The notes under the pieces are model-generated. The model was not told the origin of the DNA. It saw only the letters and a program-made list of their open reading frames with translations, and did no database searches. Positions 3,794-33,478 of a stretch of 35,051 nucleotides of DNA are shown here, one piece after another. The translations under genes and the position numbers were made by a program. Location: the NCBI GenBank assembly GCA_002773285.1, contig PFBM01000012.1, positions 33,852-68,902 of the forward strand. The letters run 5' to 3'. Every line of letters starts with the position of its first letter. The first letter of the stretch is position 1. Source of the DNA: Candidatus Kaiserbacteria bacterium CG10_big_fil_rev_8_21_14_0_10_59_10. GTDB taxonomy: Bacteria; Patescibacteriota; Minisyncoccia; Phycocordibacterales; UBA2100.

Positions 3794-3880
3794 TAGGTTA
3801 TAGGTGATAGGGGGTAGGTTGTAGTGTGAACATGTACATAGTGTTTTGGCGACAAGCTACCGGCTACGGGTTACTGGCTA
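3794..3880. repeat. Heptad TAG/CTA array pair between virB4 and the traC-like gene
   Basis: TAG at 3794, 3801, 3808, 3815, 3822; CTA/TTA at 3857, 3864, 3871, 3878. Confidence 0.9.
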
Positions 3881-4633: not shown

Positions 4634-5158
4634 TTACGAACTGCCGGCTAATTGCCGCACGCGCCCCTCGCGGGACTCTCGGACCGGCGCAACGAGCGCG
4701 TGGGCGGGGAGCGCTTCTTCCCTGTCCTCTGCCGTCGCGGTGCCCTGCGCGACGCGCTCTTTGATGTCCAAAGACCACGCGAGCTCGTGCAGACGGCTGT
4801 CGGAGAGCTTCGGAATGTACACGTCCGCCACCTTCATCGCATCGGCGGAGACGGTCTTCGGCTTTTCGAGGCGGCTGCGCCGCTCGTTGTTCCACAAGTA
4901 GAGCTTGCTGCGCATAACGTAGTAGAAGCCGCTCTCGAGCGCCGCGATGAACGGGCGGCCGTTTATGTTGAGGAACGCGAGCGCTACGCCAAGCCCGGCA
5001 AGCGACAGCACGACGGGAGCGGCGATGTAGATAGGCAGCACGCGCCACGAGAGGTACGCTGCGCCAAGCCCGCCGGCGACGTACACGAACTGTTTGAAGG
5101 TAAGCGGACCGAATATCTTATCCTCTACCTCGATGAATTGCGGTACCTGAAATTGCAT
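4634..5158 (-). CDS. PrgI family (VirB3-like) membrane protein
   Basis: 174 aa; MQFQVPQFIEVEDKIFGPLTFKQFVYVAGG..., two TM segments; next to VirB4 genes. Confidence 0.85.
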   Translation of the reverse strand: MQFQVPQFIEVEDKIFGPLTFKQFVYVAGGLGAAYLSWRVLPIYIAAPVVLSLAGLGVALAFLNINGRPFIAALESGFYYVMRSKLYLWNNERRSRLEKPKTVSADAMKVADVYIPKLSDSRLHELAWSLDIKERVAQGTATAEDREEALPAHALVAPVRESREGRVRQLAGSS

Positions 5159-5206
5159 AGCTAGCTGCTAGGGACTAGCTGCTAGCTTCTAGAGTAGGCC
5201 AGCTAG
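5158..5206. repeat. Heptad TAG array, 3' side of four-helix-bundle gene
   Basis: TAG at 5162, 5169, 5176, 5183, 5190, 5204 (all spacing multiples of 7). Confidence 0.92.
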
Positions 5207-5574
5207 CCGCGAGTCTCAAGCTTTTCAATCATAGCACGCAACATCTTGCTCACTTCGGATAAAAGTGAATTAACCTGCTCATATTCGTTTTGGGAGCAGT
5301 AGCCTAGCGTTGCCGCGATGAGTAACTGAGTCTCCATCTCCGAAGCCGAACCGTAGGCAATCGCGAGGAAATGGGTAAAGTCTTTGCGGCTACGGCGGGC
5401 CTTTCCTTCGGAGATGTTGGACGGAATTGAGACTGCACATCGGCGGAGCTGAGACGATAGTGCATATACTTCTCTTTGTGGAAAACCTTCCGTTAGCTTA
5501 TAGATAGCGATTGACAGAGTAACCGACTTTTGCCACACGATGAGGTCCTTATGCGACGATACGGCTGTTGTCAT
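5203..5574 (-). CDS. Four-helix-bundle protein (23S rRNA intervening-sequence/S23-type family)
   Basis: 123 aa; DLIVWQKSVTLSIAIYKLTEGFPQREVYALSSQLRRCAVSIPSNISEGKARRSRKDFTHFLAIAYGSASEMETQLLIA is the characteristic family signature; bracketed by inverted heptad arrays. Confidence 0.9.
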   Translation of the reverse strand: MTTAVSSHKDLIVWQKSVTLSIAIYKLTEGFPQREVYALSSQLRRCAVSIPSNISEGKARRSRKDFTHFLAIAYGSASEMETQLLIAATLGYCSQNEYEQVNSLLSEVSKMLRAMIEKLETRG

Positions 5575-5578
5575 ACAC

Positions 5579-5606
5579 TAGAAGCTAGCCCCTAGCAGCT
5601 AGAAGC
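5579..5606. repeat. Heptad TAG array, 5' side of four-helix-bundle gene (inverted relative to 5158-5206)
   Basis: TAG at 5579, 5586, 5593, 5600. Confidence 0.92.
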
Positions 5607-5618
5607 TTGAGAGCCGCC

Positions 5619-6236
5619 CTACAGAGGCGGCTCTCTATATGGATCATCCACCACCTCCGCGCGCGCGCTGCTTGTCTCCCCGGGGCGGTAGGCGGTGGAC
5701 TCCGATGGGCGCACTATTTTTACTTTCGGTTCCTTTTGGCTCTCTTGCCCGCCGCCGGCTGTTTGCTTGGATGCATCATCCTCGTCCTTTGGCGGGTGCG
5801 CTTGCGGCGGCGGCGCTCCGGCTCCGTCCGCTGGCTCTTCTCCCCCGCTCGCTTCATCCAGCACCTGCTCCCGCGCTTGCTCCACGTCGCTCACATCCTC
5901 CGCCTCGGCTTCCGGATGCTCCAGCTCGCGCTCCAGTTCCTCGCGGATGGGCTCGAACACCGACTCCGATATCGCAGCTGCGAGTGCCTCCGCGGTCTCC
6001 CTATCGACGCCGACCTCGCTCTGGATATTGTCTATGAGGTCCTTTGCCTGCTGAACGCCGAGCAATGTAAGCTGCACTTCCGTCTCCAGTGTTTCCCACT
6101 GATCGAAGTGAAGTTTGTGCGCCTCGGCCAGTTTTCGCAGGTTTTGTTGCACGTCCGCCGACGCGATCGCCTTTCTCACCGGGAGAGGAAGGGCGTCATA
6201 CCTCTCTCGAATGAGCTGCTGCAGTTCAGTATCCAT
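5619..6236 (-). CDS. Hypothetical protein with disordered acidic/proline-rich C-terminus
   Basis: 205 aa; MDTELQQLIRERYDALPLPVRKAIASADVQQNLRKLAEAHKLHFDQWETLETEVQLTLLG; operonic position. Confidence 0.8.
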   Translation of the reverse strand: MDTELQQLIRERYDALPLPVRKAIASADVQQNLRKLAEAHKLHFDQWETLETEVQLTLLGVQQAKDLIDNIQSEVGVDRETAEALAAAISESVFEPIREELERELEHPEAEAEDVSDVEQAREQVLDEASGGEEPADGAGAPPPQAHPPKDEDDASKQTAGGGQESQKEPKVKIVRPSESTAYRPGETSSARAEVVDDPYREPPL

Positions 6237-12266: not shown

Positions 12267-12614
12267 ATGCTCGCCGCTCTTCAAAGAAGCGTTGCCGCCT
12301 TGGTCGTGTTGGCGATGCTGCTCGGATTTCTCTCGCTCATCGTGCCGCGCGTCGCGCACGCGTTCCCCTTCGGCGGCCAGATAGGAACAGTGCGCCCGTG
12401 CTTCAACAATGCCATTTACGCGATGCTCGGACCGCCGCGCGGCGGGCCTTTTATATGGACACCCGCTACGAAGACGTACCAATTCGGACCACCGCGCCGC
12501 TCAGGCCAGTGGCTCCTCGGGCTCGCAAACAGCCCGTACTACTGCATTGTAAGCCGAACACCGCTTATCGTGTGGCCGGGAACGAACATTCAAATGATGG
12601 GCAGTTCAAGGTAG
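12267..12614 (+). CDS. Small exported hypothetical protein
   Basis: MLAALQRSVAALVVLAMLLGFLSLIVPRVAHAFPFGGQIGTVRPCFNNAIYAML; TACAAT 6 nt upstream of ATG; TAG stop is the first unit of a heptad array. Confidence 0.7.
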   Translation: MLAALQRSVAALVVLAMLLGFLSLIVPRVAHAFPFGGQIGTVRPCFNNAIYAMLGPPRGGPFIWTPATKTYQFGPPRRSGQWLLGLANSPYYCIVSRTPLIVWPGTNIQMMGSSR

Positions 12615-12692
12615 CTCGTAGCCGGTAGCCGGTAGCAAATACGGTGCAGGAAGCCGTAGTGTATAGAGCTACAAGCTACCGGCTACTGGCTA
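12612..12692. repeat. Heptad array inverted pair between 122-aa ORF and rsmA
   Basis: TAG at 12612, 12619, 12626, 12633; CTA at 12669, 12676, 12683, 12690. Confidence 0.92.
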
Positions 12693-13470
12693 CTCTCGCG
12701 AGGCATCGCCACGCTTCCAGCGGCACATCCTCGGCGCGCGCCTTTTCGGGAATGCCGCACGCCTCAAACACCCGAATAATATTGGGTTTCGTAAACCCTA
12801 TATTATTCGGGTGCGAGAGGTTGCTCGCCAACAGTTTTCGTTTTGATGAGAAGCCCGCGTGCACGATGTCGAAGAAACGCGCGTCCGGCACGTCCGCGAA
12901 GAATGCTTTCGAGATGTCGGTAACCGTCAAGATGGCCGAATCCACGTCCGGTGGAGGAGAAAAATTCCCGCGTCCGACCGTCCGCACAAGTCGCGGCGTA
13001 CCATACGCTTTCACCGAAAGAGAAAGGATGGATTCTTTTGCACTGGTCGCAATGCGCCGGGCGACTTCTTTTTGCACGAGAAGCGTCATCGCGCGCGGCT
13101 GCGCCTCCGCGGTCAAAAATCTCCGCAGTATCTCCCCCGTGATGTAGTAGGGAATATTAGCCGCCAGTGTGTATCCCGCGGCGTGCAATCCGCAGCGTGC
13201 GGGGTCGAAATTGCGGATATCGTCTTCTATCAGCGTCAGCCGGCGGGAGGCGATATCGTCGGCGAACACATCTCTCATATACTCGACAAGTGCCGCGTCT
13301 TTTTCGACTGCAACGACGCGCGCCCCGAGCGCAAGGAGCTCGCGCGTCAGGACGCCGCGCCCCGGCCCTATTTCAAGCACGCACTCGCCTTCTCGAAGAG
13401 GGACCGCGCGTGCAATAGCGCGCGCAATGGCGCGGTTCTTTAAAAAATGCTGTCCAAGTCTCTGCCCCAT
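12676..13470 (-). CDS. rsmA: 16S rRNA (adenine(1518)-N(6)/adenine(1519)-N(6))-dimethyltransferase
   Basis: 264 aa; MGQRLGQHFLKN, VLEIGPGRGVLTREL, ANIPYYITGEILRR motifs. Confidence 0.95.
   Translation of the reverse strand: MGQRLGQHFLKNRAIARAIARAVPLREGECVLEIGPGRGVLTRELLALGARVVAVEKDAALVEYMRDVFADDIASRRLTLIEDDIRNFDPARCGLHAAGYTLAANIPYYITGEILRRFLTAEAQPRAMTLLVQKEVARRIATSAKESILSLSVKAYGTPRLVRTVGRGNFSPPPDVDSAILTVTDISKAFFADVPDARFFDIVHAGFSSKRKLLASNLSHPNNIGFTKPNIIRVFEACGIPEKARAEDVPLEAWRCLARVASSR
12769..12813. repeat. 45-nt inverted repeat inside rsmA coding sequence
   Basis: CACCCGAATAATAT-T-GGGTTT-CGT-AAACCC-T-ATATTATTCGGGTG (20 bp plus one T-T mismatch). Confidence 0.92.
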
Positions 13471-13481
13471 ACTTGAGTTTC

Positions 13482-13559
13482 TAGCTGCTAGCTTCTAGCT
13501 GCTGGAGAAGATTGTATATGCATTGTTCTAGAAGCTAGTCACTAGAAGCTAGAAGCTAC
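13482..13559. repeat. Heptad array inverted pair between rsmA and uvrD-like gene
   Basis: TAG at 13482, 13489, 13496; TAG at 13529, 13536, 13543, 13550 then CTA 13556. Confidence 0.92.
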
Positions 13560-23826: not shown

Positions 23827-24408
23827 TTATGCGACGTCCGCATCCTCTTCAGGGGTATCTGCCGCACGCGTACGCGCGCCGAAACCGCGACGGGGCGGCC
23901 GATAATTGATGAGGTAGCGCTTCGGGTCGTTGTCGAGGTCAAGAAAGTCGTCCGACGCGTCCTTCAGCCGCTGCGAGGACGAGCGCCCGAATGACACGAC
24001 TTCGACCTGGCAGCCGCCGTGTACTTGCAAGTACTGTACGAGCGGCACAAAGTCGCCGTCGCCGGTGAGCAAGATGACGGTATCGAGTTTCGGCGACGCG
24101 GTAATTGCATCCACGGCGAGTCCGACGTCCCAGTCGGCCTTTTTGGCGCCGCCCGAGAAAATCTGCAGGTCTTTCGTGCGCATTTCGACGCCGAGCTTTG
24201 TGAGTGCCTCGAAAAACCCTTTCTCCTCGCCGCTCTCCGTGGTGACCGCATACGCGCGGGCGCGCACCAAGCGCCGTCCCGCAAGAGCGTCTTTGAGAAC
24301 GTTGCCGAAATTTACGCGCGCATGATAGATGTTCTTCGCGCTGTGATAAAGATTCTGCGTGTCGATAAAAACGCCGACACGCTGTTCGGGATGTTTAATT
24401 ATAGACAT
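23827..24408 (-). CDS. NYN-domain (LabA/DUF88-type) PIN-like RNase family protein
   Basis: RVGVFIDTQNLYHSAKN, KADWDVGLAVDAIT, LDTVILLTGDGDFVPLVQYL. Confidence 0.92.
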   Translation of the reverse strand: MSIIKHPEQRVGVFIDTQNLYHSAKNIYHARVNFGNVLKDALAGRRLVRARAYAVTTESGEEKGFFEALTKLGVEMRTKDLQIFSGGAKKADWDVGLAVDAITASPKLDTVILLTGDGDFVPLVQYLQVHGGCQVEVVSFGRSSSQRLKDASDDFLDLDNDPKRYLINYRPPRRGFGARTRAADTPEEDADVA

Positions 24409-24542
24409 AGCTTCTAGCTTTTAGCTTCTAGTAAAAAAACAGCAAACGAAACGCCTACATGCTAAAGCGCCCGCAAGTGGTACCTGCTCCGTCGCCTTCA
24501 TATTCTAACCCTAGGAGCTAGTACCTAGAAGCTAGAAGCTGT
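24408..24542. repeat. Heptad array inverted pair between NYN gene and rpsO
   Basis: TAG at 24408, 24415, 24422, 24429; TAG at 24512, 24519, 24526, 24533. Confidence 0.92.
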
Positions 24543-29649: not shown

Positions 29650-29706
29650 TATTCCGTCCTCTTCCCAGACGTCCGCGAGGCCGGAATTGACCCAAATTAC
29701 CACAAA

Positions 29707-29752
29707 TTACCAAGGACCGTCCTTGGTAAAATACCAAGGACGGTCCTTGGTA
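29707..29752. repeat. Palindrome array copy 1 (TTACCAAGGACSGTCCTTGGTAA family)
   Basis: 29707-29729 TTACCAAGGACCGTCCTTGGTAA and 29732-29752 TACCAAGGACGGTCCTTGGTA; followed by T6. Confidence 0.95.
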
Positions 29753-33413: not shown

Positions 33414-33478
33414 TTACCAAGGACCGTCCTTGGTAAATGTACCAAGGACGGTCCTTGGTAAACCCGGTCCTTGGTAAA
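33414..33478. repeat. Palindrome array copy 2 (TTACCAAGGACSGTCCTTGGTAA family) plus half-unit
   Basis: 33414-33436, 33440-33460 full units; 33463-33478 half unit CCCGGTCCTTGGTAAA. Confidence 0.95.

Follow-up and report, generated by a model that had tools for sequence, protein, structure and literature searches.

A probable family of selfish hairpin elements with heptad-array arms and S23-type four-helix-bundle genes, related to the intervening sequences of 23S rRNA

The 35,051-nt stretch of Candidatus Kaiserbacteria DNA analysed here (the window) contains an S23/IVP-type four-helix-bundle (4HB) gene enclosed by two mutually inverted arrays of 7-nt units. Our analysis suggests that this arrangement probably represents a widespread family of selfish hairpin elements that are kin to the intervening sequences (IVSs) of 23S rRNA, have arrays of 7-nt units as arms and carry a 4HB gene in some copies, while most copies have none.

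The window element and its gene-less relatives

The 4HB gene (P0001; 5203–5574, minus strand) encodes a protein of 123 aa that matches PF05635 (137.9 bits, E value 1.7e-40, cut-off 33.8), TIGR02436 (133.8 bits, E value 2.7e-39, cut-off 24) and the solved structure 2GSC (XCC0516, five chains; phmmer, 5e-28). Its upstream arm, a period-7 run of four heptads (5578–5602, minus strand), lies 3 nt ahead of the ATG, and the inverted downstream arm of five heptads (5161–5192, minus strand) lies 10–12 nt after the stop codon and ends 2 nt ahead of the ATG of prgI. The arms show the motif [TAGNNNN]n at one end and [NNNNCTA]n at the other, and they pair with each other in the minus-strand RNA fold. Written in one reading direction, they read CTAGCTG-CTAGGGG-CTAGCTT-CTAG and CTAGCTG-CTAGGGA-(CTAGCTG)-CTAGCTT-CTAG; the preliminary description of this DNA held that they differ mainly by one lost heptad, and the difference indeed amounts to one heptad and one base. 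The same description placed the gene as an interruption of a T4SS operon, and this order is confirmed: prgI (4634–5158, minus strand; PF12666, 1.5e-8) is the host gene downstream of the insertion, and a 205-aa gene (5619–6236, minus strand; C-terminus ...DPYREPPL) is the host gene upstream. Both the arm alignment and the RNA folds show the complementary, stem-forming ends of an IVS; the location is that of a protein-coding operon and not of an rRNA helix. No catalytic gene was found inside the element, the enclosed ORF matching PF05635 and, below cut-off, only the bAvd model. A second 4HB gene of the window genome (locus L002, contig C6, 3695–4012) has TAGCCAC/TAGGGTA arms and sits between LemA-like and HtpX-like genes, a site that is occupied in at least five congeners.

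Arrays of this type are abundant in the window, where 14 in-phase TAG/CTA runs of at least three units occur (200 Markov-1 simulations: mean 0.04, maximum 2) and 12 of at least four (none in the simulations). Inverted gene-less pairs had been described at three sites, all of which we recovered (12612–12692, 13481–13558 and 24408–24540), together with a fourth, more diverged pair at 3794–3880 that was absent from the earlier list. The first consists of a GTAGCCG-type arm (12612–12635) and a second arm (12669–12692) that holds the TAG stop of KsgA (12676–12678) in register; the minus-strand RNA fold of 12605–12700 has a z-score of −6.4. The second pair (fold z = −2.1) comprises a KsgA-side arm (13481–13503) and an arm whose last unit is the TAG stop of UvrD (13528–13558; stop at 13556–13558). 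At the UvrD–KsgA junction of an empty relative, the TAG stop is already present (AGGTAG|GGTATACCC), and this stop is the first array unit in the window genome. The third pair (fold z = −1.8) lies at the S15–NYN junction, where 79 nt of native intergenic DNA separate an arm whose end forms the NYN start as CTATG (24408–24431) from the S15-side arm (24511–24540). In the fourth, one arm (3794–3824) ends at the start of a VirB4/TraG-like gene, and its partner (3853–3880; minus strand TAGCCAG TAACCCG TAGCCGG TAGCTTG) contains the TAA stop of a 229-aa gene in register. Stop codons were in register with the array in 23 of 57 cases, a figure that is descriptive only and partly trivial, since a TAG-rich array brings its own in-register stops.

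Gene-less pairs also occur in relatives. Those of genome G013 measure ~90 nt, with four to five heptads, a spacer of 19–38 nt that is unconserved in sequence and four to five inverted heptads; commonly a TAG stop precedes them and a CTATG start follows, and they share their heptad type with the arms of one 4HB gene of G013 itself. The inverted pairs of ~90 nt in G013 and G011 are dispersed intergenically in the manner of REPINs, with arms that are tandem heptads, not REPs.

Two further features of this genome are recorded for completeness. A perfect palindrome (TACCAAGGACCGTCCTTGGTA) forms two tandem pairs in the window (29704–29752 and 33415–33462) with a period of 24–25, and a second KsgA-like rRNA adenine dimethylase gene (contig C9, 5028–5777) is 60 % identical to that of the window.

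Heptad arrays around four-helix-bundle genes in other bacteria

A lack of heptad arrays beside 4HB genes elsewhere would have counted against the preliminary description, and such arrays are present: a period-7 or period-8 array was detected in at least one flank of 133 of 144 distinct 4HB genes. This sample combines a scan of GTDB contigs (70 relatives), the loci of the window's family and 25 diverse genomes or records; it was seeded by sequence similarity to one protein, draws on MAG contigs and covers Patescibacteria, Bacteroidota, Bacillota, Treponema, Cyanobacteria, Proteobacteria and others. The 99 % limit of shuffled sequences was exceeded by period 7 in 68 % of the flanks upstream of the gene and 67 % of those downstream; the corresponding figures were 19 and 16 % for period 8 and 1–8 % for other periods. 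Shuffles provided the threshold in place of random windows from the same loci, which are useless for this purpose and themselves exceed the period-7 limit in 4 % of cases because they contain gene-less arrays. Nearly all of the 70 GTDB relatives with flanks read have arrays at both ends of the 4HB gene. No array was called for 11 of the 144 genes, and none was seen on reading several Xanthomonadaceae loci.

The array unit varies by lineage, being CTAGNNN or TAGNNNN in Kaiserbacteria and other Patescibacteria, GAGTTAC or GAGTTGAC in Bacteroidota, AGCTTTN in Selenomonadales and TAGGTTC in Treponema. Cyanobacterial plasmid 4HB genes are flanked by GGGAGTA, AAAAGCT and CAGGTGA, heptamers of the STRR kind. 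The 8-nt period is a genuine variant (GAGTTGAC, CAGTGCGG), and arrays of 8-nt units surround 4HB genes in Bacteroidota, Nitrospirae and Liptonbacteria (L064, L066, L053, L072 and L253). The cyanobacterial plasmid elements (L117, L118, L119 and L121) interrupt operons, some of them in antisense orientation, and the operons concerned encode ribonucleotide reductase subunits, cas6–cas4 (two species) and ABC transporters.

Arms match within an element. Among 95 elements with both arms, the mean alignment score was 19.1 for the inverted and 7.7 for the direct orientation, vs 6.4 when arms were aligned in inverted orientation with those of other elements, and the inverted alignment exceeded the direct one in 95 % of these elements. 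The median number of units per arm was 4.5, and AG was the commonest dinucleotide of the unit consensus in gene direction (59/78). Array type tracks 4HB protein identity (Mantel rho 0.47; permutation maximum 0.19), and arms and gene are therefore inherited together. That sequence instability alone, in the form of tandem slippage and imperfect-palindrome correction, produced the arrays, with the 4HB genes present by chance, is very improbable. Such a process fits the varying number of units, the matching of arms within an element and the change of heptad type at orthologous sites, as expected of concerted hairpin evolution; however, it does not account for the link to a single protein family in different phyla, for periods being limited to 7 and 8, for the covariation of array type with protein identity or for the near-identical hairpins at different 23S helices described below. 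Instability is disfavoured as the full explanation, while slippage or palindrome correction may be the way in which the arms of an element stay matched.

Arrays and 4HB genes also co-occur at the genome level. In 70 family genomes, at least three matches to the TAG-array pattern were present in 34/36 genomes with a 4HB gene vs 7/34 without (p = 1e-10), leaving two genomes with a 4HB gene and no TAG arrays and seven with arrays and no 4HB gene. The association persisted within the genus (32/33 vs 6/19, p = 5e-7), this being the one control for phylogeny behind these counts. The pattern gave 2076 matches vs 55 for a reversed control pattern.

Two alternatives assign the mobility of the hairpins to another enzyme acting in trans. 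In the first, an HUH (Y1) transposase of the RAYT/TnpA kind moves them and the 4HB protein is a passenger or helper, which we consider quite unlikely. A Y1_Tnp domain is present in 35/36 genomes that have a 4HB gene and in 18/34 that lack one, and the inverted-pair hairpins resemble REPINs; against this, the elements contain no HUH gene, Y1 genes are widespread in general, no period-7 array exceeds the limit in the DNA surrounding one Y1 gene of the window genome and two array-rich genomes, both incomplete, have no Y1 match. In the second, a reverse transcriptase copies the structured RNA with the 4HB protein as an accessory like Avd, which shares a fold family with 4HB proteins and has a reverse transcriptase as its partner (PMC10053308). 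We regard this as highly improbable: the window protein falls below the cut-offs of the Avd (NF033474; 25.4 vs 80 bits) and bAvd (33.3 vs 40 bits) models, the window genome has no RVT_1 match and no template or variable repeats were seen in it, and reverse transcriptases are not associated with 4HB genes among the family genomes (13/36 with vs 10/34 without, p = 0.6).

Site occupancy, movement and hairpins in the 23S rRNA

Occupancy of the prgI site is patchy. In the flank upstream of prgI in 63 family genomes, 17 sites are occupied by a 4HB gene with arrays, 3 are decayed and 43 are empty, the latter without arrays, so that the gene is not fixed at this operon position; fixation in all relatives would likewise have counted against the preliminary description. 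Of the decayed sites (L164, L165 and L133), those of G018 and G054 retain arrays and a disrupted 4HB gene, and that of G013 has a 4HB remnant without arrays. Heptads at the occupied sites differ between species. Many empty sites have a TATAAT-like box just ahead of the prgI ATG that is missing in occupied ones. The native promoter region is absent from the occupied junctions, so that the event there is a replacement, or an insertion with deletion, and not a clean insertion. No target-site duplication was seen at prgI, UvrD–KsgA or S15–NYN, where the empty and occupied junctions have either diverged too far or differ by replacement, and no excision product of the element was seen.

At the S15–NYN junction, inspection of 46 genomes by eye revealed a two-armed pair in ~20, one arm in five and an empty site in 20. 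In the relative G038, a 4HB element occupies the position of the gene-less pair of the window. The gene-less pairs at this junction bracket the native promoter region, with heptads that differ among the ~20 genomes; hence, not every pair is simply an element minus its gene. The earlier view of gene-less pairs as empty derivatives accordingly stands as far as kinship with the element is concerned and does not extend to all pairs.

These sites also bear on the proposal that the 4HB protein is a post-transcriptional regulator of the host, the arrays being selected operator sites and its own gene being autoregulated. The adjacency of arrays to start and stop codons and the two-armed S15–NYN pairs, present in ~20 of 46 genomes with differing heptads, would suit such a role, and the TAACTGA heptamers of Beggiatoaceae have been proposed as translational regulatory sites (PMC4679880). 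Even so, host regulation seems unlikely, given that occupancy is patchy between congeners, the host genes have no common function, hairpins including recent duplicates lie within 23S rRNA and some genomes have arrays and no 4HB gene.

The 4HB tree (43 proteins) shows both stability and movement. Elements at the same site tend to group together (site A requires 7 changes, vs 14 after shuffling), and inheritance is therefore largely vertical. One supported clade (96/94), however, unites elements at LemA–HtpX, S15–NYN (L105) and elsewhere, with arms mostly of the TAGCCAC/TAGGGTA type, and within this clade the gene and its arms have moved between sites together. The AtpG–AtpD junction (L039 and L226) and the site upstream of RpiB (L102 and L233) each reappear with distantly related 4HB subfamilies.

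The 23S rRNA gene of the window genome (G000; full length by the LSU model) contains three heptad-arm hairpins. Near E. coli position 289, three species (G000, G031 and G038) have a heptad hairpin in place of the short native hairpin of seven relatives; the heptads differ among the three and are self-complementary in each, the loops are similar (ATGCAGCAATGCA in G000) and the fold z-scores are −9.9, −7.2 and −8.6. Two hairpins of G000, at ~1167 (helix 45) and ~1717, are 92.6 % identical over 135 nt (L399, contig C5, 2843–2976 and 3509–3640) and absent in three relatives, and G038 has near-identical heptad hairpins at ~539 (helix 25) and ~1167. For RNA pairing of the arms and for movement of the hairpins, the strongest evidence in this study comes from the heptads that compensate at a single helix and from the recent copies found at two. 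Helices 25 and 45 are classical IVS sites, at which an extended stem replaces the native tetraloop, and the Coxiella IVS, which is excised by RNase III, carries an S23 ORF (PMC4990558). Because the window genome itself has these heptad hairpins in its 23S rRNA, including one at a classical IVS site, the IVS with an S23 ORF is the closest known kind of element. The preliminary description had likened the window element to RAYT/REP systems, as an autonomous element with MITE-like kin; a portable unit of gene and arms with gene-less kin is what we find, and the rRNA IVS is the nearer parallel.

Other rRNA observations were made in passing. An additional insertion of 888 nt lies near E. coli position 2511 in the 23S rRNA of G000. 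A motif (CCAAGGTCGGACCTTGG) similar to the window palindrome fills an extended 23S hairpin of G033 (L405) and may therefore represent another class of hairpin insertion. BLAST searches with E. coli 23S and 16S rRNA revealed no 4HB gene inside rRNA among the other loci analysed.

A possible mechanism and comparison with known systems

Each end of such an element is an array of ~4–5 units, 7 nt long or, in certain lineages, 8 nt, and the two ends are mutually inverted, so that its transcript can form a long stem with regular mismatches; these mismatches could be part of the signal. Some copies hold the 4HB gene in the loop, and most a short spacer or native intergenic sequence. Copies probably persist where an RNA hairpin is tolerated, namely at stop–start junctions within operons and in 23S rRNA terminal loops, in which they constitute IVSs. 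The 4HB protein is predicted to bind the arms as a pentamer, perhaps with one unit per subunit, and thereby to protect, mark or help spread the elements.

The pentamer is suggested by structures of relatives. The Xanthomonas S23/IVP protein has been described as a homopentameric torus (PMC4990558), and two relatives of solved structure, 2GSC and 2RLD, have five chains each. For the window protein, single-sequence AlphaFold modelling gave low confidence (pLDDT 45). Residues conserved at 85 % are mostly located in P32–G57, with R60, G75, S76 and E79 in addition. A pentamer and arms of 4–5 units together suggest a stoichiometry of one unit per subunit; TRAP, for comparison, binds its triplets. 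A far broader proposal, which we put forward tentatively and consider possible rather than likely, is that a ring of five 4HB proteins reads 7- or 8-nt units, one per subunit, on either hairpin RNA or ssDNA and acts in trans to spread or protect gene-less hairpins by the hundred, and that this selfish system is the common source, across bacteria, of IVSs and of the heptamers of Xanthomonas, Nostoc, Beggiatoa and Bacteroidetes. The association described here turns three puzzles, namely the abundance and role of S23/4HB proteins, the origin of heptamer repeats and the nature of 23S IVSs, into one testable question. Binding to the arms can be assayed directly for a protein family whose function is unknown, and the covariation of arrays with the gene can be checked in any genome collection.

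Among known systems, IVSs with an S23 ORF (Coxiella and Leptospira; PMC4990558) share with the window element the protein family encoded in the loop, the stem-forming complementary ends, the patchy presence and the replacement of a native tetraloop helix, and the window's genus has heptad hairpins at the helix 25 and 45 sites. They differ in that the window element lies in a protein-coding operon, has gene-less copies spread over the genome and ends in arrays of 7-nt units, which we encountered in no IVS paper within an incomplete coverage of the literature. A catalogue of rRNA insertions in CPR bacteria includes 23S_rRNA_IVP ORFs and short IVSs and leaves repeats unmentioned (PMC11270868). 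The Avd and bAvd proteins of diversity-generating retroelements are alike in fold family and, by published structures, in being pentamers, whereas the window protein scores under their family cut-offs and its genome showed neither template/variable repeats nor a reverse transcriptase. REPINs and RAYTs similarly combine two inverted arms separated by a short spacer with numerous gene-less copies and a single candidate gene family; the window element, in contrast, has no HUH transposase, and its arms are tandem heptads rather than a single REP palindrome.

The remaining comparison, with published heptamer repeats, relies on their published descriptions. Xanthomonas and Nostoc have GGGAATC and GGGGATT heptamers, those of Xanthomonas mostly in arrays of four units and forming 70–75 convergent inverted pairs per genome (PMC4692102), and TAACTGA repeats occur in Beggiatoaceae, Cyanobacteria and Bacteroidetes (PMC4679880); neither report names a causal gene. 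Like the arms described here, these repeats and the STRRs of cyanobacteria are intergenic arrays of 7-nt units. Unlike them, they have not been reported with a link to a four-helix-bundle gene, and we found no text joining heptamer repeats with S23/IVP or four-helix-bundle genes in the literature covered, which was incomplete. Arrays of the STRR kind are nevertheless present at the ends of the cyanobacterial plasmid 4HB genes read here.
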